A stretch of DNA of 38,034 nucleotides from an uncultured Actinomycetes bacterium (lineage in GTDB: Bacteria > Actinomycetota > Acidimicrobiia > Acidimicrobiales > Ilumatobacteraceae): contig CALEHE010000146.1 in assembly GCA_937876415.1 (NCBI GenBank), positions 1 to 38,034 of the forward strand. The letters are read 5' to 3'. Both the position numbers and the translations under genes were made by a program. This document shows, one piece after another, positions 994-10,671 of this stretch (position 1 is the first letter of the stretch; each line of letters begins with the position of its first letter). The notes beneath the pieces are model-generated. The model made no database searches. It had not been told where the DNA came from and worked only from the letters and a program-made list of their open reading frames with translations.

Positions 994-1014
994 ACCCCCA
1001 TACGATCAAGATTG

Positions 1015-1965
1015 ATGTCTGTTGGTTCTCGCCCCTTGGTTCCGTCTCGCCTGTCTCCAGGTGGAGTCGCCGCTCACGGCGCCCGCAAAGAACCCAAGTC
1101 GGTTCTTGGTGGCTACATCGTTTTAATGAAGTTGCGGGTTGTGGAGCTGTTGCTCATCACCACGGTCCCCACCATGGTTTTGGCCGAACAAGGTTGGCCC
1201 AGTTGGGGTCTCGTCGCTATCACCCTCATCGGTGGCACTTTGGCCGCGGGCGGGGCCAACGCCATCAACATGGTGATAGACCGCGACATCGATGCCCTCA
1301 TGGATCGCACCAAAACTCGTCCGCTCGTGACTGGTCTGATCACTCCTCGGGCCGCCATGATCTTTGCGCTGGCCTTAGAAGCGCTCGCTTTTGCGATCTT
1401 GTGGGTCGGGGCCAACCTGCTGGCGGCCTGCTTGGCGCTGGCAGCAACCTTGTTTTACGTCTTCGTCTATTCGTTATGGCTCAAGCGAACGAGCCGGCAA
1501 AACATCGTGATCGGGGGCGCAGCCGGTGCAGTCCCAGTCTTAGTGGGTTGGGCAGCGGTACAAAATTCTCTGGCCTGGGAGCCATTTATCCTGTTCATAG
1601 CCATATTTTTGTGGACCCCACCCCATTTTTGGGCGCTGGCGATCCGTCATGCCGACGAGTACAAAGCGGCCGGAGTGCCCATGATGCCATCGGTCGTGTC
1701 CATGAAGCAGACGGTCCGCCAAATGTTCGTGTACACCGTGCTATTGACAGCAACCACCCTCGTTCTGGGTCCAGTTGCCAATCTTGGGCTGACGTATATG
1801 ATTTCAGCGGTGGTGTTAGGGCTCGGATTCATTGCGAGCACCATTGATTTGGGTCGTAACCCGTCAGCCAGCCGCGCCATGCGAGTTTTTGGCTTCTCCA
1901 TCACCTATGTGACGGTGCTGTTCACTGCGATGGCAGTCGACGTGTTCATCAAAAACGGAATTTGA
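1015..1965 (+). CDS. ctaB: Protoheme IX farnesyltransferase (heme O synthase)
   Basis: Integral membrane UbiA-family prenyltransferase that attaches a farnesyl group to heme B, giving heme O, the precursor of heme A for the oxidase encoded downstream. The first Asp-rich motif (NMVIDRDIDALMDRT), the second loop (RTSRQN) and the HADEYKAAGVPMMP segment are all present, with about eight or nine hydrophobic helices. ATG 1015 is preferred; TTG 1012 adds one residue. No good ribosome binding site is seen. A candidate promoter (TTGGTT at 977, 18 bases, TACGAT at 1001-1006) lies so close that the mRNA may be nearly leaderless. Its position beside the cta operon fits its role. Confidence 0.93.
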   Translation: MSVGSRPLVPSRLSPGGVAAHGARKEPKSVLGGYIVLMKLRVVELLLITTVPTMVLAEQGWPSWGLVAITLIGGTLAAGGANAINMVIDRDIDALMDRTKTRPLVTGLITPRAAMIFALALEALAFAILWVGANLLAACLALAATLFYVFVYSLWLKRTSRQNIVIGGAAGAVPVLVGWAAVQNSLAWEPFILFIAIFLWTPPHFWALAIRHADEYKAAGVPMMPSVVSMKQTVRQMFVYTVLLTATTLVLGPVANLGLTYMISAVVLGLGFIASTIDLGRNPSASRAMRVFGFSITYVTVLFTAMAVDVFIKNGI

Positions 1966-2167: not shown

Positions 2168-3787
2168 ATGACATCAATTGAAACCCACCTGCCTACTGAT
2201 GTGTCTGCATCAAATTCCGCCATTGCAACCTGGCTGACTTCTGCTGATCACAAAAAAGTTGGGCGACTCTTTATCGGCTCTGGACTGGTCGGTCTTGTGG
2301 CTGGACTTGTTCTCGCGATTGTGGTGACCTTTGAGCGCATCAACGCCGATAGTTATCAGATTCTGAGTGTGGATTCAGTTCCACAAGTGCTAGCCGCAGT
2401 TCGTTTGCTGCTCACCTTCGGTGCAGTAGTGCCATTGCTTCTCGGCTTATCAATTGCCGTGGTGCCGTTGCAGTTGGGCGCACGTTCAAATGCGTTTCCG
2501 CGTTTAGCCGCGGCTGGTTTCTGGATGTGGCTGACTGGTCTCGGTATTGCAGTGGCGTCAATCATTGGCAACGGAGGACCCAACGGTGGTAACTCCGATC
2601 TCGTTGATTTGTACCTTGCCGGCTCCATTGTTCTCGGTCTTGGTGTGCTAATGGCAGCCACATCCATCGCAGTCAGCGTGCTCACAACTCGAGCACCGGG
2701 TATGGGCATCTTGCGGGCACCACTTTTTACATGGTCATCACTCGTTGGTTCGTTGGCTGTGATTCTTACGATGCCAGTTTTGATTGGTACGACGCTTTAC
2801 GTTTATGTCGATCATCGTTATGCCCGCGCTGGTTTCGGTGGCAACATCGGAGTCAACCAGTGGGTTGGTTGGGCGTTGTCACAACCATTTAGTTTTCTTT
2901 TGGCAATCCCAGCACTCGGCATCGTCCTTGATGTAGTGCCGACGATCGCACGTACCCGCTTGGCCCAACGCTCGGTGGCGTTCGGTGCAATTGGTGTGGT
3001 TTGCGTATTTGCGCTTGCTGTGGTCACTCAGACCAGTATCACTCTTCCTTGGGAAGGAGAGAAGTTTTTTGATAACGCTGGTTCGAAGATCGCCGACCTG
3101 CTTCCGTTCTTGTTGCTGAACGTGGTCCCTGTTCTCGGATTGCTCGGAGTTCTTGGTTTGTCGCTTCTGACACTCAAGTCGGCAAAGCCTGTGATCAGTG
3201 CACCGTTGACTTTCGTCTTGATCGGTCTTCTCGGAATTCTTCTTGGTGCTGCAGCACATATCGTTGGGCTCGTAGAAGATGCTGGTTTGATCGGCTCGGT
3301 CTACGAAGCCGGCGTTTATGTGCCGATTACCTTTGGTGCGATTGCCATTGCCTTCGGCGGTATTTGTTTCTGGGGTCCCAAGTTGTGGGGACGGTCAATC
3401 TCCGATAAGGCGGCGACACCTTTGGCATTGTTGACATTGCTTGCTATCGGTCTTGATTCAGTTCCGTACTTTGTCGCTGGATTTGCTGATCAGCCGGCCG
3501 GTTTGGTGAATGGCTTTTCGTACAGCGGTCCACAAGATTTATGGAACGCGTTGACGTGCGCAGGATTCGTCGTCATGTTGTTGGCTTCGATTGCATTCAT
3601 CGGATTGGCGTTGAAGAGTTTCACGAGTGGTGCGGTCGCCGGTAACGATCCGTGGGATGGTTCAACTCTTGAATGGGCGACGTCGTCACCACCACCCGAA
3701 GATAATTTCGCTGGGGTCATCGTCGTAAATTCGGCAACTCCGTTGACCGACTCGAAGTCCGCTTCATCAACAGGGAAGGTTGCCTGA
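2168..3787 (+). CDS. COX1-like membrane protein lacking all heme and copper ligands
   Basis: A 539-residue, about 12-helix paralogue of cytochrome oxidase subunit I. It aligns with the active CtaD at 6801-8816 over TxDHKKxG, VPLQxGARxxAFPRL, RAPGMxxxRxPxFTW and the C-terminal DPWDGxTLEW. Every metal ligand is replaced: heme a His (97 in CtaD) is Val78; the CuB His and cross-linked Tyr (275, 279) are Gln239 and Phe243; the His pair 324/325 is Gln288/Thr289; and His410/His412 are Val383/Val385. It cannot bind hemes or CuB in the usual way. As the first gene of the oxidase operon with an intact frame, it is probably a structural or regulatory subunit; its function is unknown. Confidence 0.85.
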   Translation: MTSIETHLPTDVSASNSAIATWLTSADHKKVGRLFIGSGLVGLVAGLVLAIVVTFERINADSYQILSVDSVPQVLAAVRLLLTFGAVVPLLLGLSIAVVPLQLGARSNAFPRLAAAGFWMWLTGLGIAVASIIGNGGPNGGNSDLVDLYLAGSIVLGLGVLMAATSIAVSVLTTRAPGMGILRAPLFTWSSLVGSLAVILTMPVLIGTTLYVYVDHRYARAGFGGNIGVNQWVGWALSQPFSFLLAIPALGIVLDVVPTIARTRLAQRSVAFGAIGVVCVFALAVVTQTSITLPWEGEKFFDNAGSKIADLLPFLLLNVVPVLGLLGVLGLSLLTLKSAKPVISAPLTFVLIGLLGILLGAAAHIVGLVEDAGLIGSVYEAGVYVPITFGAIAIAFGGICFWGPKLWGRSISDKAATPLALLTLLAIGLDSVPYFVAGFADQPAGLVNGFSYSGPQDLWNALTCAGFVVMLLASIAFIGLALKSFTSGAVAGNDPWDGSTLEWATSSPPPEDNFAGVIVVNSATPLTDSKSASSTGKVA

Positions 3788-4386
3788 TGCTTGCACTACC
3801 CCCCGCCTCGCAACCCGTACCGCGCCGCCAAGTATTTGTTGGCACTGCGGTGGCAGGTGCTGCTGGCCTCATGCTCGTCGGCGGAATGATGGCCACTTGG
3901 CTGCAGTTCCGCGCCGATGCACCAGTGCGTGAATCTGCGAAGCGTGGCTTCATTAAAGACTGGATGCCCGAAAGGATCATTGTTCCAGAAGTTGCTGCAA
4001 ACATCATGTTGCTTGGACTTTTGGTTGTTTGTGTCATGGCGCAGTGGGCTGTGTACTCAGCAAAGCGCAATGACCGCACGCATACTGGTCTGGCCCTCGG
4101 AGTCACTGCGCTCATGGCTCTGGCAGTCATTAACGCCCAGATCTTCATCTGGACACAAATGGGCGTCGGAGCCAGGGATGGAGCCTTCCATTCAATGTTC
4201 TACGCCTCAACCGGAGCGATGACCGCATTGTTGCTTTCTGGATTGGTGTTCACCGCAGTTGCCTCGTTTAGGTATCTCGGAGGACGCACGAAAGAAGTTG
4301 AACTCGTTTCGGCTCATGCTCTTTATTGGTACTTCCTCGCTGCAGCGTTCTGCGCAGTGTGGTTCGTCATCTACGTGCAGAAGTGA
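3787..4386 (+). CDS. Degenerate COX3-like membrane protein
   Basis: 199 residues with about five transmembrane helices. It aligns with the true COX3 at 8809-9420, including a shared C-terminal pattern (ALYWYFLAAAF here, GLYWHFVDVVW there) and FYxxTG. The conserved polar residues of COX3 are lost: His to Tyr and Asp to Ala in the last motif, the Glu of VYEF to Ile, and the His pair of the GFHGVH segment. The ATG at 3787 overlaps the previous stop by one base (TGATG), so the two degenerate subunits are coupled. It probably forms a ligand-free COX1/COX3 pair. No cofactor role can be assigned. Confidence 0.75.
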   Translation: MLALPPASQPVPRRQVFVGTAVAGAAGLMLVGGMMATWLQFRADAPVRESAKRGFIKDWMPERIIVPEVAANIMLLGLLVVCVMAQWAVYSAKRNDRTHTGLALGVTALMALAVINAQIFIWTQMGVGARDGAFHSMFYASTGAMTALLLSGLVFTAVASFRYLGGRTKEVELVSAHALYWYFLAAAFCAVWFVIYVQK

Positions 4387-4399
4387 CGAGGCAGCACTC

Positions 4400-5539
4400 A
4401 TGATTACAACAAGCTCAAAACTCTTTTACGGAATAGGCGGGGTGGCGTTTGCCGCGGCCATTGTTTGGATGATCGCGAACAATGGCGGATCTGGTGCAGT
4501 TGCACTGGTATTCGTCGCGACGGCCTCAATATTCCTCGGCGCTATTGCCTCATATGTTCGTGATGGGCACGTGTTGTCAACCGACACCGAACAGCATGAT
4601 TCGGCGCCAGCCGCACAACGGGGATCTGGTCGTAGTTGGTTCCCACTCGGAACTGCTCTATCGCTCGGAACTGTGATTGTTGGTCTCGTCACTTCACCAG
4701 GCATTTTCAAAGTCGGCGTTGCTCTGTTGTTGGCAATGCTCGGCGAATGGCTGATTCAGAACTGGAGTGATCGTGCTTCGTCTGACCCGAGTTATAACGA
4801 GCGAGTTCGTGGCCGGGTTGTTCACCCACTCGAAATTCCGATCGCTGGAGCATTATTGCTCGCCATCATCGTGTTGTCTTCCTCAAGAATTTTCTTGGCG
4901 TTGTCGAAAAATGCTGGGGCCATTGTTTTCAGCATCATCGGAATCTTGGTTTTGTTCTTTGGCTCGGTGCTATCAATCCGACGCGGCACGAGTGTTCGTT
5001 TTGTCGGTGCGGTCTGCGGAGTGGTGCTTTTGTCCTTATCAGTTGTCGGTGTCGTGCTCGCTCTCGATGGAGAGCGTGAGCAATTGACAGAGGCCGCTGA
5101 AGAAGATCATTTCGCCCACCGTGCCTGTGGCGTGGAAGCCGAGTATTCCGATAAGCATGCGGTTCGTGCCGTGTCGGCAAAGAGCAGCGTGGCTGCCACC
5201 GTGACCCTGAAAGATGGTGCCCTGTACGCCGAGATGGATGGCTACTCGGGCCCGTTGACCTCAATCACTTTGCAGCGTTCACTGAACTCAAGCATCATCT
5301 TCCAAAACGAAGATGAAGGCGAACATCGGATGGTAGTGACATACGGCAAGGTCGTCGAATCTTTAGGTGGCGGGGTTGAGCGCGAGACTTTACTTCAAGC
5401 GTGCACTTCGTTGGTGACAAAAGGTGGTCAGCAAGGTGTAGTCGTGAACATTCCAAAGCCATCGTTTTCAAGCACTGAGGGATTCAGCATTACCGTTCCT
5501 GGTCTTGAGGGAGCATCGGTTGAGGTGTTGGTGCCATGA
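4400..5539 (+). CDS. Multi-pass membrane protein with COX4 (CtaF)-like start and cupredoxin-like C-terminal domain
   Basis: 379 residues from ATG 4400, chosen because a GAGG motif lies nine bases upstream; a longer frame would run back through the COX3-like gene. The first 55 residues resemble the two-helix actinobacterial CtaF pattern. About five further helices follow to residue 225, then an extracytoplasmic beta-rich domain of about 145 residues. That domain has a cupredoxin-like layout (IIFQNEDEGEH, then LQAC, then a terminal VEVLVP strand), but the second His and the Met of a type-1 copper site are absent. It overlaps ctaC by four bases (ATGA). The family is not recognised; its place suggests an oxidase accessory subunit. 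Confidence 0.65.
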   Translation: MITTSSKLFYGIGGVAFAAAIVWMIANNGGSGAVALVFVATASIFLGAIASYVRDGHVLSTDTEQHDSAPAAQRGSGRSWFPLGTALSLGTVIVGLVTSPGIFKVGVALLLAMLGEWLIQNWSDRASSDPSYNERVRGRVVHPLEIPIAGALLLAIIVLSSSRIFLALSKNAGAIVFSIIGILVLFFGSVLSIRRGTSVRFVGAVCGVVLLSLSVVGVVLALDGEREQLTEAAEEDHFAHRACGVEAEYSDKHAVRAVSAKSSVAATVTLKDGALYAEMDGYSGPLTSITLQRSLNSSIIFQNEDEGEHRMVVTYGKVVESLGGGVERETLLQACTSLVTKGGQQGVVVNIPKPSFSSTEGFSITVPGLEGASVEVLVP

Positions 5540-6786
5540 AAAAAATGTTTAATCAAGTTGGAGAGTCGATGAAGTCTGCACGTCGTTGGCATGGTGCCGC
5601 AAAGGCCGCGATTGCCGTTTCAGCATTGAGTTTCTTGGCCAGTTGTGCCAAGGACGCACCGCAAGATACCTGGCAACCAGCCGGACCAAACGCTGAGAAA
5701 ATTGACAACTTGCAACGGCCAGTGTTTTACGTCGCTGGCATTGTTGGTGTCATTGTTTTTGCCGCAGTGGCATGGACAATGTACCGCTACCGCGATCGTG
5801 GACAGGCGATTCCTGAGCAGACCCACGGTAAGCCTGCTCTGGAAATTGTATTGACAGTTATCCCCGTTCTGATTCTATTGGGTGTCGCCGTTCCGACCGC
5901 CGGAACAATTTTTGAGTTGGCCAAAACCAGCGATACCGAAATGACCATCAACGTCACTGGTCAACAGTGGTGGTGGGAATACGACTATCCGGCTTCTGGT
6001 TCGAATATCGAAGAATTTGGAATTACTGCTCCGATTGTGACCTCGGGACAACTCGTCATTCCCGAGAACACCAAGGTCTTGCTGCGAGTTACAAGTCGCG
6101 ACGTGATCCATTCATACTGGATTCCTAAGTTGAACGGTAAGAAAGACAGCGTTCCTGGTCGAGTTCATTTGTTGCGCATGGAAGGTTCTCAGCCTGGTAT
6201 TTACGCCGGACAGTGCACTGAGTTCTGCGGGTTGTCACATTCGTACATGCGTATGGAGGCAGTCGTGTTGTCACGTGCTGATTACGACAAGTGGGTTGCG
6301 AACGAACTTGAGGAATATACCGCTCCCGCGGCTGGCACCGAAGCGGCAGTTGGTGAGTCTTTGTTCATTCAACAGTGCAGTCGTTGCCACCAAGTCAACG
6401 GGCTTGCGAACTCCGATGGAAGTCTGATTATTTCGGCTCCTGATCAGTACCTCGTTTCGGGTGCTGCACCTAATTTGACCAATCTCATGACGCGCAACAC
6501 CTTTGCCGGCGCATCGTGGGATTTGCTCACACCTGAATGTCGCAACAACGTCTGGAATGCCGACTCAGCGGATTTCGGTGAGCGTTACCTTGCGGGTGTG
6601 TCCTCTGATTGTCTCAATCAGAAAGATCTTCGTGAGTGGTTGCGTAATTCACCAGCCAAGAAGCCGATGTATGCCGACCCAACTAAGTTGGAAGCCTCCG
6701 ATGGCAAGTACCGCGGTATGCCGGCACTTGGTCTCACCGAGGACCAAATCAATTCCATCATTGCCTATCTGCTCGAGCGGAAATAA
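5536..6786 (+). CDS. ctaC: Cytochrome c oxidase subunit II with fused cytochrome c domain (caa3 type)
   Basis: 416 residues. A signal peptide ends in the lipobox LASC, two membrane helices follow, and then the CuA domain. That domain has the aromatic QQWWWEYDY stretch, His in DVIHSYW, and the CTEFCGLSHSYM cluster providing Cys, Glu, Cys, His and Met. A C-terminal c-type cytochrome follows with CSRCH and a likely axial Met in RGMPAL. The roughly 120 residues between heme site and Met are long and contain two further cysteines. It accepts electrons from a cytochrome bc complex or cytochrome c and passes them to CtaD. An internal ATG at 5569 has a better ribosome site (GGAGAG) and may be the true start. 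Confidence 0.93.
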   Translation: MKKMFNQVGESMKSARRWHGAAKAAIAVSALSFLASCAKDAPQDTWQPAGPNAEKIDNLQRPVFYVAGIVGVIVFAAVAWTMYRYRDRGQAIPEQTHGKPALEIVLTVIPVLILLGVAVPTAGTIFELAKTSDTEMTINVTGQQWWWEYDYPASGSNIEEFGITAPIVTSGQLVIPENTKVLLRVTSRDVIHSYWIPKLNGKKDSVPGRVHLLRMEGSQPGIYAGQCTEFCGLSHSYMRMEAVVLSRADYDKWVANELEEYTAPAAGTEAAVGESLFIQQCSRCHQVNGLANSDGSLIISAPDQYLVSGAAPNLTNLMTRNTFAGASWDLLTPECRNNVWNADSADFGERYLAGVSSDCLNQKDLREWLRNSPAKKPMYADPTKLEASDGKYRGMPALGLTEDQINSIIAYLLERK

Positions 6787-6800
6787 CGGGAGAAAATTAG

Positions 6801-8816
6801 ATGACCATCATTGATCGTCCCTCCACTGACGTGGCTGTTGTCGGCGGTGCACCAACGGGTGTCAAGCCGAGTGAAGCACTTGGTGTTTTTAAACGTCCTA
6901 CTGCTTCAACAAGTTGGCGAGATTGGGTAGTAACAGTCGACCATAAGAAGCTCGGCATTATGTACGGCGTTACCGCTTTCTTCTTCTTCATCGTGGGTGG
7001 TGTTGAAGCGTTGCTTATTCGTTTGCAATTGATTGCTCCTGATGGAACAGTTCTGAACGCCGATCAGTACAACCAGATGTTCACGATGCATGCCACCACC
7101 ATGGTGTTCTTGTTCGTGATGCCGATGGCCGCCGCATTTGCGAATTACTTCGTGCCATTGCAAATTGGTGCACGCGACGTGGCTTTCCCACGCTTGAACG
7201 CGTTTGGTTTCTGGTGCTTCTTGTTTGGTGGTTTGTTCTTGAACTCGTCATGGTTTTTGGGTGGCGGAGCCGACGGTGGTTGGTTCATGTACGCACCTAA
7301 CAGCAGCACTTTGTTCTCGCCAAGTCACGGAATTGACTTCTGGACACTCGGTTTGCAGATCACTGGTATTGCCTCACTGACCGGTGCCATCAACTTGATT
7401 GTCACCATCCTCAACATGCGGGCGCCCGGAATGAAGATGATGCGTATGCCCATCTTCACGTGGATGATTCTCGTGACCCAGTTCTTGCTGTTGTTCGCGA
7501 TTCCCGTCATTACTGTCGCCTTGTTCTTGTTGTCATTCCAGCGTTCATTTGATGCGACATTCTTTGATGTCGCTTCGGGCGCCGACCCACTTCTATGGCA
7601 ACACTTGTTCTGGATCTTCGGTCACCCTGAGGTGTACATCATGATCCTGCCGTCCTTTGGCATTATCAGCGAAGTCCTTCCGGTCTTCTCGAAGAAGCCG
7701 TTGTTTGGTTATCCCATCGTTGCGATGTCGGGTGCGGCAATTGGTTTTGTTGGTTGGGGCGTATGGGCCCACCACATGTTTGCTTCGGGCCTTGGTCCAG
7801 TATCGGTCACTGTGTTCTCAATGGCCACGATGGCGATTGCAGTTCCGACCGGTGTCAAGATCGTGAACTGGGTCATGACAATGTGGGGCGGCAAACTCAC
7901 CTTTACAGTGCCGATGTTGTTCGCCATTGCTTTGGTCGTTCAGTTCACCATTGGTGGTCTGTCGGGCGTTACTCACGCAGTTGCCCCTTCAGATACCCAG
8001 CAAACTGACACGTATTACATTGTTGCCCACTTCCACTACGTTCTGTTCGGTGGCGCAGTATTCGGCTTGTTCTCTGGCTTCTATTACTGGTGGCCCAAGA
8101 TGTTCCGTCGCCAGTTGAGTGAAGGGCTCGGAAAGTGGAACTTCTGGTTGATGGTGATCGGGATGAACCTCACATTCGGACCCATGCACATTCTTGGATT
8201 GCAAGGTCAGCCTCGTCGTATGGGCGTCTGGACCGAAGCTCGCGCTGGTGAAGGATTCTTTAACCTCGGATTCTGGAACCAAGTTGCATCAATTGGCTCG
8301 TTCGTTTTGGGCATTGGCGTGCTGATGTTCTTGGTGAACATCGTCTACACCCACAAATCAAAGAAGATTGCAATTGCACCGCTCGATCCTTGGGATGGTC
8401 GCACCCTTGAGTGGATGACTCACAACCCGCCGCAAGAACACAACTTTGACACCATTCCGACAGTTAGTCACCTAGATGAGTTCTTCCATCGAAAGTACGA
8501 GACGGACGCGACGACGCATGCAGTCACGCAAGTGCATAGTGCTGAGGAAGTGATGGCCGAACTCAACGCCCATCCCGATGAGCACATTCACATGCCATCA
8601 CGTTCGTACTGGCCAATCTTGTTGGCATTGTCCTTGCCGGTCATTACATACGGTTTGATTTACAACCGCATGTTGATGGCAGTCGGCGCTGCCATGACAA
8701 TGTTGACAATGTTTGGTTGGTCCATGGAACCATCGACGTCACCTGACGAAGATTTCGATCCCCCGGCACCTGGTGAAGGTGGCGGCCACACGAAGGAGCT
8801 GTCGCCCCTTGGCTGA
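6801..8816 (+). CDS. ctaD: Cytochrome c oxidase subunit I, catalytic
   Basis: 671 residues, 12 core helices. It reduces O2 to water and pumps protons. The full ligand set is visible: His97 and His412 for heme a, His410 for heme a3, and His275, His324 and His325 for CuB, with Tyr279 in HPEVY for the His-Tyr cross-link. After the DPWDGRTLEW motif there is an extension of about 120 residues ending in two extra hydrophobic helices (SYWPILLALSLP and the segment after it), longer than the usual 530-560 residues. GGGAGA lies upstream of ATG 6801. The gene follows ctaC by 14 bases and overlaps ctaE by eight. Confidence 0.96.
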   Translation: MTIIDRPSTDVAVVGGAPTGVKPSEALGVFKRPTASTSWRDWVVTVDHKKLGIMYGVTAFFFFIVGGVEALLIRLQLIAPDGTVLNADQYNQMFTMHATTMVFLFVMPMAAAFANYFVPLQIGARDVAFPRLNAFGFWCFLFGGLFLNSSWFLGGGADGGWFMYAPNSSTLFSPSHGIDFWTLGLQITGIASLTGAINLIVTILNMRAPGMKMMRMPIFTWMILVTQFLLLFAIPVITVALFLLSFQRSFDATFFDVASGADPLLWQHLFWIFGHPEVYIMILPSFGIISEVLPVFSKKPLFGYPIVAMSGAAIGFVGWGVWAHHMFASGLGPVSVTVFSMATMAIAVPTGVKIVNWVMTMWGGKLTFTVPMLFAIALVVQFTIGGLSGVTHAVAPSDTQQTDTYYIVAHFHYVLFGGAVFGLFSGFYYWWPKMFRRQLSEGLGKWNFWLMVIGMNLTFGPMHILGLQGQPRRMGVWTEARAGEGFFNLGFWNQVASIGSFVLGIGVLMFLVNIVYTHKSKKIAIAPLDPWDGRTLEWMTHNPPQEHNFDTIPTVSHLDEFFHRKYETDATTHAVTQVHSAEEVMAELNAHPDEHIHMPSRSYWPILLALSLPVITYGLIYNRMLMAVGAAMTMLTMFGWSMEPSTSPDEDFDPPAPGEGGGHTKELSPLG

Positions 8817-9420
8817 AACAGCAATCTCCCACGGTCATGATGTAGGTCATGGTGCACATTCCTCAACGGGAATGTCTAACAACAAGCTCGGAATGTGGAT
8901 GTTCCTCGGTTCAGAATGTCTACTTTTTGGTGGATTGATCTCGACCTACATGTTGTACAAAGGTCGCGTCAACGAAGGGCCACAGCCCGATCAGATCTTT
9001 GATATTCCGTTTACGTCGGTCAGCTCATTCATCTTGTTGATGAGTTCGTTGACCATGGTGCTCGCTGTTTCGGCAGCACAGCGAAAAGATGAGCGCAATA
9101 TGAATTTGTGGCTCGTCATTACTGCATTACTCGGAGCCACTTTCGTCGGTGGTCAGGTGTATGAGTTCACCGCGTTTTACCGAGAGGGCTTGGGCTTTAC
9201 GACCAGCCTCTTCGGTTCAAGTTTTTACACGTTGACCGGATTCCACGGAGTTCACGTATCAGTCGGAATCATCATGTTGATGGCTCTTGTTGGTATGAAC
9301 CGCAACAAGCGCATTCCTGGCGACCGAGCTGAAGTTGTCGAATTGGTCGGGTTGTACTGGCACTTCGTCGACGTTGTCTGGATTATCATCTTCACCCTCG
9401 TCTACCTGATTCCGTCCTGA
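8809..9420 (+). CDS. ctaE: Cytochrome c oxidase subunit III
   Basis: 203 residues, about five helices. Typical COX3 motifs are present: MWMFLGSECLLFGGLI near the start, VGGQVYEF, FYTLTGFHGVHV and GLYWHFVDVVWI. The start is taken as TTG 8809 because AAGGAG (8793-8798) sits ten bases upstream; the next in-frame ATG would remove part of a His-rich N-terminus. It overlaps the end of ctaD by eight bases. It stabilises the catalytic subunit and helps maintain proton uptake. Confidence 0.93.
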   Translation: MAETAISHGHDVGHGAHSSTGMSNNKLGMWMFLGSECLLFGGLISTYMLYKGRVNEGPQPDQIFDIPFTSVSSFILLMSSLTMVLAVSAAQRKDERNMNLWLVITALLGATFVGGQVYEFTAFYREGLGFTTSLFGSSFYTLTGFHGVHVSVGIIMLMALVGMNRNKRIPGDRAEVVELVGLYWHFVDVVWIIIFTLVYLIPS

Positions 9421-9430
9421 GGAGCGACCA

Positions 9431-9763
9431 ATGAGCACCGCTACCGAACACACCGAACACACCGACGGCCACGAAGCCGAACATCACGGTTTGTCTGACA
9501 TGCAATACATCAAGATCGCCTTGATTTTGGCGGCCTTGACGGCGATTGAAGTATCAACGTATTACGTTGACTTTGGTCCGTTCTTCATGCCAACACTGTT
9601 CATCTTGATGATTATCAAGTTTGTGATCGTGGCGTCGTACTTCATGCACCTCAAGTTTGACAACAAGATGTTTTCTTACCTGTTTTACTCAGGCTTGTTG
9701 TTAGCCATCGCCGTGTATTGCGGATTTTTAGCAACATTTAAATTCTTCATTCAGAAGGGTTGA
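9431..9763 (+). CDS. ctaF: Cytochrome c oxidase subunit IV (small, three-helix)
   Basis: 110 residues. A His/Glu-rich soluble start is followed by three hydrophobic helices in the arrangement of the prokaryotic COX4 family, with the recognisable KFVIVASYFMHLKFD segment. GAGG is placed before ATG 9431. It lies ten bases after ctaE and just before ctaG, in the usual caa3 order. It is non-catalytic and probably assists assembly or stability. Confidence 0.85.
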   Translation: MSTATEHTEHTDGHEAEHHGLSDMQYIKIALILAALTAIEVSTYYVDFGPFFMPTLFILMIIKFVIVASYFMHLKFDNKMFSYLFYSGLLLAIAVYCGFLATFKFFIQKG

Positions 9764-9768
9764 TCTTC

Positions 9769-10671
9769 ATGCTTGGTGAAATTGCCATTGATCCTTGGCG
9801 ATTTCAACTGCACCTTGAGGTGTGGCTACTTGTCATTTTCTTGGTTGCGTCCTACGTCTATGTTGTCCGGGTTCTAGGACCCAAGGCCGTTCCGGCTGGT
9901 GAACCAGTTGTTACTCGGCGAGAATTGTCATGCTTTATCGCCGGCATTTTGATGTTGTGGTTAGCCACTGACTGGCCGATGCATGACATCGCCGAAGAGT
10001 ATTTGTACTCGGTGCACATGTTTCAGCACATGGCACTCACATACTTCATGCCACCGCTGGTAGTTCTGGCAACTCCCGAGTGGTTCGTGCGCATTCTGGT
10101 TGGTAAAGGTCGGGCCTACCGGGCTTTGCGTTTCATGGCCTTTCCCGTACGGGCTGGACTTCTATTCAATATCGGAGTGATGGTAAGTCACATTCCGGGT
10201 GTCGTCAATGCATCGGTGTCGAACGGACCATTGCACTATTTCGTACACATGCTTTTGGTGATGACCTCGATCTTGATGTGGCTACCTGTCATTGGACCCT
10301 TTAAAGAATTTCAGATGAAGCCCATGGGAAAAATGATTTATCTCTTTCTAAACAGCGTTGTCGCAACAATTCCTGCCGGCTGGCTCACCTTCGCTGAAGG
10401 GGTTGTCTATAAGAGTTACAACATTCCGGAGCGTGTTTGGGGAATGTCGGTGAGTAACGATCAGCAGATTGCTGGAGCCATGATGAAATTAGGTGGATCA
10501 ATTTTCCTATGGACCATCATTGTTGCCATGTTCTTTAGGCATTTTGTGAAAACCTTCAGAGACGAAAACAAAGATGGCTATGTGCGTAAAGAGTCAGTTC
10601 TGACAACTGCCGATGTTGAACGCGCCTTTGAGGCGACGCCACCAGTAGAAGAGCCTCGAACACACAAATAG
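9769..10671 (+). CDS. ctaG: Cytochrome c oxidase assembly protein CtaG (caa3 type)
   Basis: 300 residues, about seven helices, of the caa3_CtaG membrane family, which is linked to copper insertion or assembly of caa3 oxidases. Features are WLATDWPMHDIAEEYLYSVHMFQHM with several His/Met residues on helix ends, LFNIGVMVSHIPG, and a C-terminal cytosolic tail. ATG 9769 is chosen over TTG 9760 because AGAAGG lies ten bases upstream of the ATG. It is the last gene of the operon and converges on arsJ with 17 bases between stops and no clear terminator. Confidence 0.88.
   Translation: MLGEIAIDPWRFQLHLEVWLLVIFLVASYVYVVRVLGPKAVPAGEPVVTRRELSCFIAGILMLWLATDWPMHDIAEEYLYSVHMFQHMALTYFMPPLVVLATPEWFVRILVGKGRAYRALRFMAFPVRAGLLFNIGVMVSHIPGVVNASVSNGPLHYFVHMLLVMTSILMWLPVIGPFKEFQMKPMGKMIYLFLNSVVATIPAGWLTFAEGVVYKSYNIPERVWGMSVSNDQQIAGAMMKLGGSIFLWTIIVAMFFRHFVKTFRDENKDGYVRKESVLTTADVERAFEATPPVEEPRTHK

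Follow-up and report, generated by a model that had tools for sequence, protein, structure and literature searches.

What does a protein with the fold of oxidase subunit I do for its host once the residues that bind its metals have been replaced? Few known proteins are as constrained as haem-copper oxidase subunit I, and an old lineage that has shed its cofactor ligands but is maintained by purifying selection beside the working enzyme would be a natural dissection of the fold without its chemistry. The window analyzed in this study (the whole stretch of 38,034 nucleotides from an uncultured member of the Ilumatobacteraceae) carries such a gene, COX1p, within an oxidase gene cluster. The initial annotation, made from the sequence alone, had proposed that COX1p encodes a pseudo-oxidase subunit retained for a structural, regulatory, or proton- or quinone-related role.

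COX1p has the subunit I fold and lacks the metal ligands

The COX1p frame (2168..3787, + strand) is open and encodes 539 aa, as initially described. The protein matched Pfam COX1 (PF00115) at 6.4e-32 (111.4 bits; gathering score 34.8) and shared 30% identity with the CtaD encoded at 6801-8816. The structure predicted for COX1p alone was a COX1 fold with 12 transmembrane helices (pLDDT 88, pTM 0.91); the Foldseek match of this model had an E value of 2.7e-23, and its VIA alignment with subunit I of the bo3 oxidase covered 503 residues at Z 41.7. COX1p thus shares with A-type subunit I (CtaD/COX1, PF00115, TIGR02891) the fold, the 12 helices, the company of subunits III and IV, and the cytoplasmic motifs DHKK, VPLQxGAR, RAPGM, and DPWxGxTLEW. 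Unlike A-type subunit I, it has no metal ligands and no K or D channel, and its score against the NCBIfam CtaD_CoxA equivalog TIGR02891 (183.6 bits) was below the cut-off of 670.75. The NO reductase branch binds haem b3/FeB through His (and Glu) ligands, and these His positions are likewise empty in COX1p.

The family alignments confirmed, at exactly the positions first proposed, that the six metal-ligand histidines of CtaD are replaced by V, Q, Q, T, V, and V. His97, His275, and Tyr279 of CtaD correspond to Val78, Gln239, and Phe243 of COX1p, and His324, His325, His410, and His412 correspond to Gln288, Thr289, Val383, and Val385; single letters of such ligand strings depend on the alignment, and these were read from the family alignments, the 324/325 pair of CtaD falling opposite a gap in the two-sequence alignment. 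The ligand string of the window CtaD is complete (HHYHHHH). The cross-linked Tyr had also been described as replaced, which holds for the window (Phe243) but not for its close relatives. On these alignments the change from Tyr to Phe is a recent one, because a 96%-identical relative (L002) has Tyr at this position and Tyr is the commonest state there in the non-haem rows (64/103).

The proton pathways are affected as well. The D-channel Asp and Asn are replaced by S and A, the Glu equivalent to E286 by F, and the K-channel Lys and Thr by V and L; the proton role suggested for the gene is disfavored by these replacements. Judged by its residues, the window COX1p can have kept none of the known redox or proton chemistry of COX1; the metal content of all proteins in this study was inferred from ligand residues. 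We also looked for ligands displaced to other positions. COX1p contains four histidines (7, 28, 216, and 364); H28 is also present in CtaD, H216 occurs in 20/28 and H364 in 9/28 rows of the COX1p family, and no membrane pair is conserved family-wide. Displacement was ruled out on these grounds.

Across 98 full-ligand rows, 90 positions are >97% invariant; 36 of these are retained by the window COX1p, roughly half lying in cytoplasmic motifs. With the cytoplasmic and periplasmic sides set from the model helices and the known COX1 topology, positions below 1 bit in COX1p clustered in cytoplasmic loops (29/92) compared with the membrane (33/348) and the periplasmic loops (4/58); in CtaD they amounted to 55/92, 236/350, and 34/59, respectively. 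Folding constraints rather than docking may account for the conservation of the cytoplasmic face.

COX1p belongs to a three-gene module in front of a caa3 oxidase

The cluster comprises, in order, ctaB, COX1p, COX3p, IVp, ctaC, ctaD, ctaE, a COX4_pro gene, and ctaG, all on the + strand. COX1p had been called the first gene of the oxidase operon. It is the first gene of a coupled block, but ctaB (1012..1965; haem o synthase, Pfam UbiA 2.2e-65) precedes it by 202 bp in the same orientation and was directly upstream of COX1p in 102/106 loci with room for it. Similarly, the single-gene description fits COX1p itself, but the feature extends to 5539 and includes three genes; the two neighbors, and the intermediate relatives described below, were absent from the initial annotation.

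The COX1p stop codon overlaps the ATG of COX3p (TGATG). COX3p (3787..4386) encodes a divergent COX3 paralogue of 199 aa, which matched Pfam COX3 at 3.5e-6, above the gathering score, and NF050119 at 6.2e-11, below the cut-off. IVp (4400..5539, the start at 4400 being chosen rather than given) encodes a CtaF (Cyt_c_ox_IV)-like membrane part with extra helices and a C-terminal cupredoxin fold; its match to Pfam Cyt_c_ox_IV (9.5e-5) was below the gathering score. The IVp stop codon overlaps the ctaC start (ATGA). The remaining genes encode subunit II of the caa3 type, with a periplasmic COX2 domain and a fused cytochrome c (ctaC, 5536..6786; Pfam COX2 6e-24, Cytochrom_C 9.5e-8), the active subunit I with all ligands and a C-terminal subunit IV-like part (ctaD, 6801..8816; Pfam COX1 1.2e-156, Cyt_c_ox_IV 3.1e-6), the active subunit III (ctaE, 8872..9420, the start being uncertain in a frame open from 8713; Pfam COX3 6.2e-22), a COX4_pro subunit (9431..9763; Pfam 1.5e-11), and the caa3_CtaG assembly factor (9760..10671; Pfam 3.2e-41). 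A promoter scan yielded nothing useful. The 2.44-Mb window genome contained two COX1 matches, COX1p and ctaD, and encodes cytochrome b and haem A synthase elsewhere.

The cupredoxin-fold domain of the IVp model spans approximately residues 261-379 (~120 residues), with a pLDDT of about 80 in this domain and 67.5 overall; the alignment used for the model had 31 rows, including three copper-binding relatives in which that domain was largely gapped. The top Foldseek matches of the domain were amicyanin and Cupredoxin_1 structures, and VIA alignments with cupredoxin structures covered 85-98 residues at Z 10.0-10.3. The domain therefore shares its fold with type-1 copper cupredoxins (Cupredoxin_1; amicyanin, 4hcf). 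Unlike them, the window IVp has no copper loop, which is present in basal relatives, and neither the alignment nor the intact-domain profile located the type-1 copper ligands H, C, H, and M in it. As judged by ligand residues, the module duplicates subunits I, III, and IV, includes a cupredoxin domain, and is devoid of metal ligands. In the window family, the cupredoxin domain that has lost its copper ligands has two almost invariant cysteines, C243 and C335 of IVp, which are missing from the three aligned relatives that bind copper; a disulphide may replace the copper site.

COX1p is an old lineage under purifying selection

A tree of 94 rows placed all 56 COX1p rows on one side of a branch with an SH-aLRT of 100, grouped the 22 CtaD rows with the same support, and put none of the 38 full-ligand rows among the 56 rows without the full set. 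The rows had been sorted by ligand string, so that their number proves nothing and the tree is the test. COX1p forms a clade separate from CtaD and, by this topology, is therefore old and not a recent CtaD copy. When CtaD was used as the outgroup, the HYWSEQH type branched first within COX1p, followed by the HR...HH type, and the window family was nested deep within the clade; the 94-row tree leaves the fork between these two types open, and both trees are quick ones without bootstrap. These two earliest-branching types comprise few genomes (L095, L098, L162, and L163; L028, L029, L031, L032, L037, L164, L165, and L179).

The dN/dS comparison proposed in the initial annotation, carried out with NG86, gave medians among close relatives of 0.055 for COX1p, 0.076 for COX3p, and 0.122 for IVp (7 genomes, 21 pairs each) and of 0.052 for CtaD and 0.051 for CtaC (5 genomes, 10 pairs each); the median for ctaB among 5-7 close relatives was 0.037. 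IVp was thus the most weakly constrained of the module proteins. In a more distant set, COX1p reached 0.204 vs 0.094 for CtaD, and in the 94-row tree the COX1p branches were longer than those of CtaD. The dN/dS values of both sets indicate that the module is constrained, yet less so than CtaD over longer times. A pseudogene was rejected by dN/dS and the age of the clade.

The replacements also follow a pattern. Gln occupied the H275 position in 92/103 and the H324 position in 87/103 non-haem rows, many of which are near-duplicates; in the non-haem rows of a thinned set, counted from row names, it occupied these positions in 33/45 and 34/45. By these counts the Gln-Gln pair is an ordered replacement of the CuB site.

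COX1p co-occurs with caa3-type CtaD across the order

A COX1p match was present in 21/24 same-genus genomes, the window's own included (a 64-residue fragment in G005 and a partial match in G018); the other three genomes, 68-86% complete, had no COX1 match whatever. The listed COX1p matches of the genus were free of in-frame stops. We then surveyed 65 genomes of the order, starting from CtaD rather than from COX1p and setting aside matches of 36-40% identity. Caa3-type CtaD was present in 47/65 genomes, as full rows in 43 and in split pieces in four (one of which, in G418, is a 53%-identical fragment). COX1p was present in 46 of these 47 genomes vs 1 of the 18 without caa3-type CtaD; its ligands were read in 42 of the 46, and G113, G165, G420, and G426 were counted by place and low identity. 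In the sole exception (G119), caa3-type ctaD lies 2.9 kb from a contig end. The proposal of a retained pseudo-oxidase subunit is supported by the open frames in relatives, by this co-occurrence, and by a dN/dS that, between closely related genomes, nearly equals that of CtaD.

At the level of loci, which were partly chosen by COX1p, 70/73 caa3-type ctaD genes had COX1p upstream, the other three being too near a contig end, and COX1p was upstream of 0/25 COX1 genes of other types. One genome (G403) had an open COX1p and no caa3 CtaD that could be found; at its locus (L167), IVp is 144 residues long and no ctaC-ctaD follows in the stretch. This shortened cluster would be either a real deletion or an assembly join. 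Outside the class, 16/16 loci (14 genomes, the best of 101 matching genomes) were full-ligand; among the matches listed for other orders of the same class, the three loci examined, all of one family (L133-L135), carried ordinary COX1. COX1p outside Actinomycetota was covered through a pattern scan only.

Among genomes of the same family, G155 (96% complete) had no COX1 match at E 0.001 in a first look that scored 9/20 candidates. The matches in G062 and G148 were flagged with one in-frame TGA, and open 530-residue frames were present in both (L112 and L115).

Metal sites are lost in graded steps among relatives

The ligand comparisons were extended to 116 rows, which are redundant and leave out one CtaD fragment (L063). 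Of the three CuB His, at most one remained in any of these rows. Nine rows kept H97 and H412, the two low-spin haem ligands, and five of the nine also kept the haem a3 ligand H410. The type-1 copper site of IVp was intact in 7/9 haem-pair rows vs 0/107 others, the latter including L001-L020, where the stretch ended before the IVp end (these genomes are mostly whole again in L041-L057), and L066 and L089, where no IVp was seen. The copper-site profile had been built from those seven rows, so 20 fresh loci were fetched as a test. The haem pair was kept in 7 of these, 4 with copper, and was lost in 13, none with copper (the IVp gene of one, L172, lies beyond the contig end). After thinning to 61 COX1p rows, haem and copper ligands occurred together in 11, haem ligands only in 5, neither in 45, and copper ligands only in none. 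The window has neither set, and basal relatives keep the H..C..H..M copper ligands of IVp.

These nested states suggest that, in the line leading to the window, CuB was lost first, the blue copper second, and the low-spin haem last. The loss of haem a3 was not cleanly ordered; the basal HYWSEQH type is without its ligand and HRYAGHH has it. The tree required five haem changes and three copper changes, and after phylogenetic correction at most two informative independent pairs were available for the haem-copper association, too few to give power, and a sign test was not significant. As far as the ligand residues tell, the association rests on nested states and not on many independent events. 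The idea that the module substitutes for complex III in haem-keeping relatives was not supported; cytochrome b (PF13631) was encoded in 20/20 genomes searched, whatever their haem state.

In one clade, a gene of the thioredoxin fold (AhpC/TSA, Redoxin) adjoins the module (L031:7055-7600, L032:7591-8229, L037:7226-7795, and L029 near 7686-8134; also L164, L165, and L179). In the most basal type, a gene for a ZnuA-type metal-binding protein lies downstream of the module (L095:12444-14257 and L098:12805-13815); in L095, this gene is located between the module and ctaD, and an ABC ATPase gene is present as well.

Discussion

A ligand-less COX1 is, by the available description, a known kind, because a COX1-like protein without any metal-binding residue and clustered with ctaB is on record for Acetobacter (Matsutani et al. 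2014, as cited in PMC10715153). According to the latter source, this protein occurs in acetous bacteria using a bo3 ubiquinol oxidase, and a structural role in stabilizing CtaB was suggested for it. COX1p can be likened to this protein by description: it is COX1-like, has no metal ligands, and lies near ctaB. As far as that description goes, the Acidimicrobiales form differs in several respects: its clade spans the order, it shares an operon with an active caa3 oxidase, its partners are a COX3 and a cupredoxin-bearing protein, and intermediate states exist. A partnership with CtaB is weakened here; ctaB also adjoins ordinary COX genes, and the module overlaps ctaC in the window. In the open-access literature searched, which lacks most subscription papers, neither the Acidimicrobiales module nor its cupredoxin partner nor the intermediates were described, and we met no case of an inactive subunit I paralogue kept beside the active one in a haem-copper oxidase complex. 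Non-catalytic paralogous subunits exist elsewhere, such as F1 alpha beside beta and the core proteins of complex III, and in these, too, an inactive paralogue is kept beside an active subunit.

The interpretation we favor, with slightly less than even confidence, is that COX1p, COX3p, and IVp constitute a duplicate oxidase core, demetallated and non-catalytic, which serves the adjacent caa3 oxidase as a structural partner. We favor it because the fold is kept and the ligands and channels are gone, in an old clade under purifying selection whose genes stay together and occur with caa3 CtaD. The three proteins would associate in the way subunits I, III, and IV of a genuine oxidase do, and together they would dock on CtaC-CtaD-CtaE, perhaps through its conserved cytoplasmic face, as the permanent structural half of a hetero-oligomeric complex IV. 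This physical interaction is inferred, the models here being of single chains. The blue copper and haem ligands kept by basal relatives suggest an ancestral role in electron transfer, and the ancestor was probably an electron carrier in which electrons passed from the type-1 copper on IVp to the low-spin haem in COX1p; on the line to the window, the wiring would have been lost stepwise and the scaffold would have stayed. The faster evolution of COX1p than of CtaD over longer distances, the G403 genome, and the weakly constrained IVp count against this interpretation, and it is possible that the module functions apart from the oxidase complex. A stronger version, which we offer with more reserve, is that complex IV of these Acidimicrobiales is an obligate hetero-oligomer of a catalytic core and a demetallated pseudo-oxidase core (I+III+IV/cupredoxin), the latter a former blue-copper/haem electron-transfer complex that lost CuB, blue copper, and low-spin haem in turn (haem a3 varying) and whose scaffold became indispensable.

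The module may alternatively act transiently in assembly, as a mould or chaperone that folds or metallates CtaD/CtaC/CtaE, passing on haem from CtaB and copper to CuA/CuB, and would then be absent from the mature enzyme. Its position, flanked by ctaB and ctaC in a cluster that ends with ctaG, would suit this role, as would the co-occurrence of COX1p with caa3 CtaD and the thioredoxin-fold gene beside the module in the clade described above, this fold being typical of copper chaperones for oxidases. However, rows of the window family showed no thioredoxin gene of this kind next to the module, ctaB also lies near ordinary COX genes without COX1p (L133-L135), and the window module overlaps ctaC and not ctaB, which is separated from COX1p by the 202-bp gap. 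We consider an assembly role less likely than a structural one, though it is the leading alternative.

It appears improbable that the module is a membrane complex in its own right, sharing no more than the operon and having a new function (sensing, or the handling of lipids, quinones, or ions). The Gln-Gln pair at the CuB site and the frequent Tyr/Phe suggest a maintained pocket, the module has three subunits of its own, and G403 has COX1p without caa3 CtaD; by contrast, the co-occurrence counts (46/47 vs 1/18) tie the module to one oxidase type, and its genes overlap ctaC. A redox role through non-canonical ligands, with haem or metal bound elsewhere, recalls the bis-His haem ligands and blue copper of basal relatives but is very hard to reconcile with the four histidines, which include no conserved membrane pair, and with an IVp without the copper ligand set. 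A decaying relic of a second oxidase, to which the graded ligand loss across lineages and the shortened IVp of G403 might point, is scarcely credible given a dN/dS near that of CtaD, the absence of in-frame stops from the matches listed for the genus (21/24 genomes with a match), and the age of the clade.

Living intermediates among the relatives (haem and blue-copper ligands, haem ligands alone, and none) make the order of loss directly testable. The locus also matters for databases, in which homology annotation will count proteins of the COX1p type as terminal oxidases in freshwater actinobacteria. Several public MAGs have titles that seem at odds with their content (L041, L042, L043, and L074, titled Bifidobacterium breve; L059, Ferrithrix thermotolerans; and L065, Acidobacteria), and each of them carries an Ilumatobacteraceae-type module.
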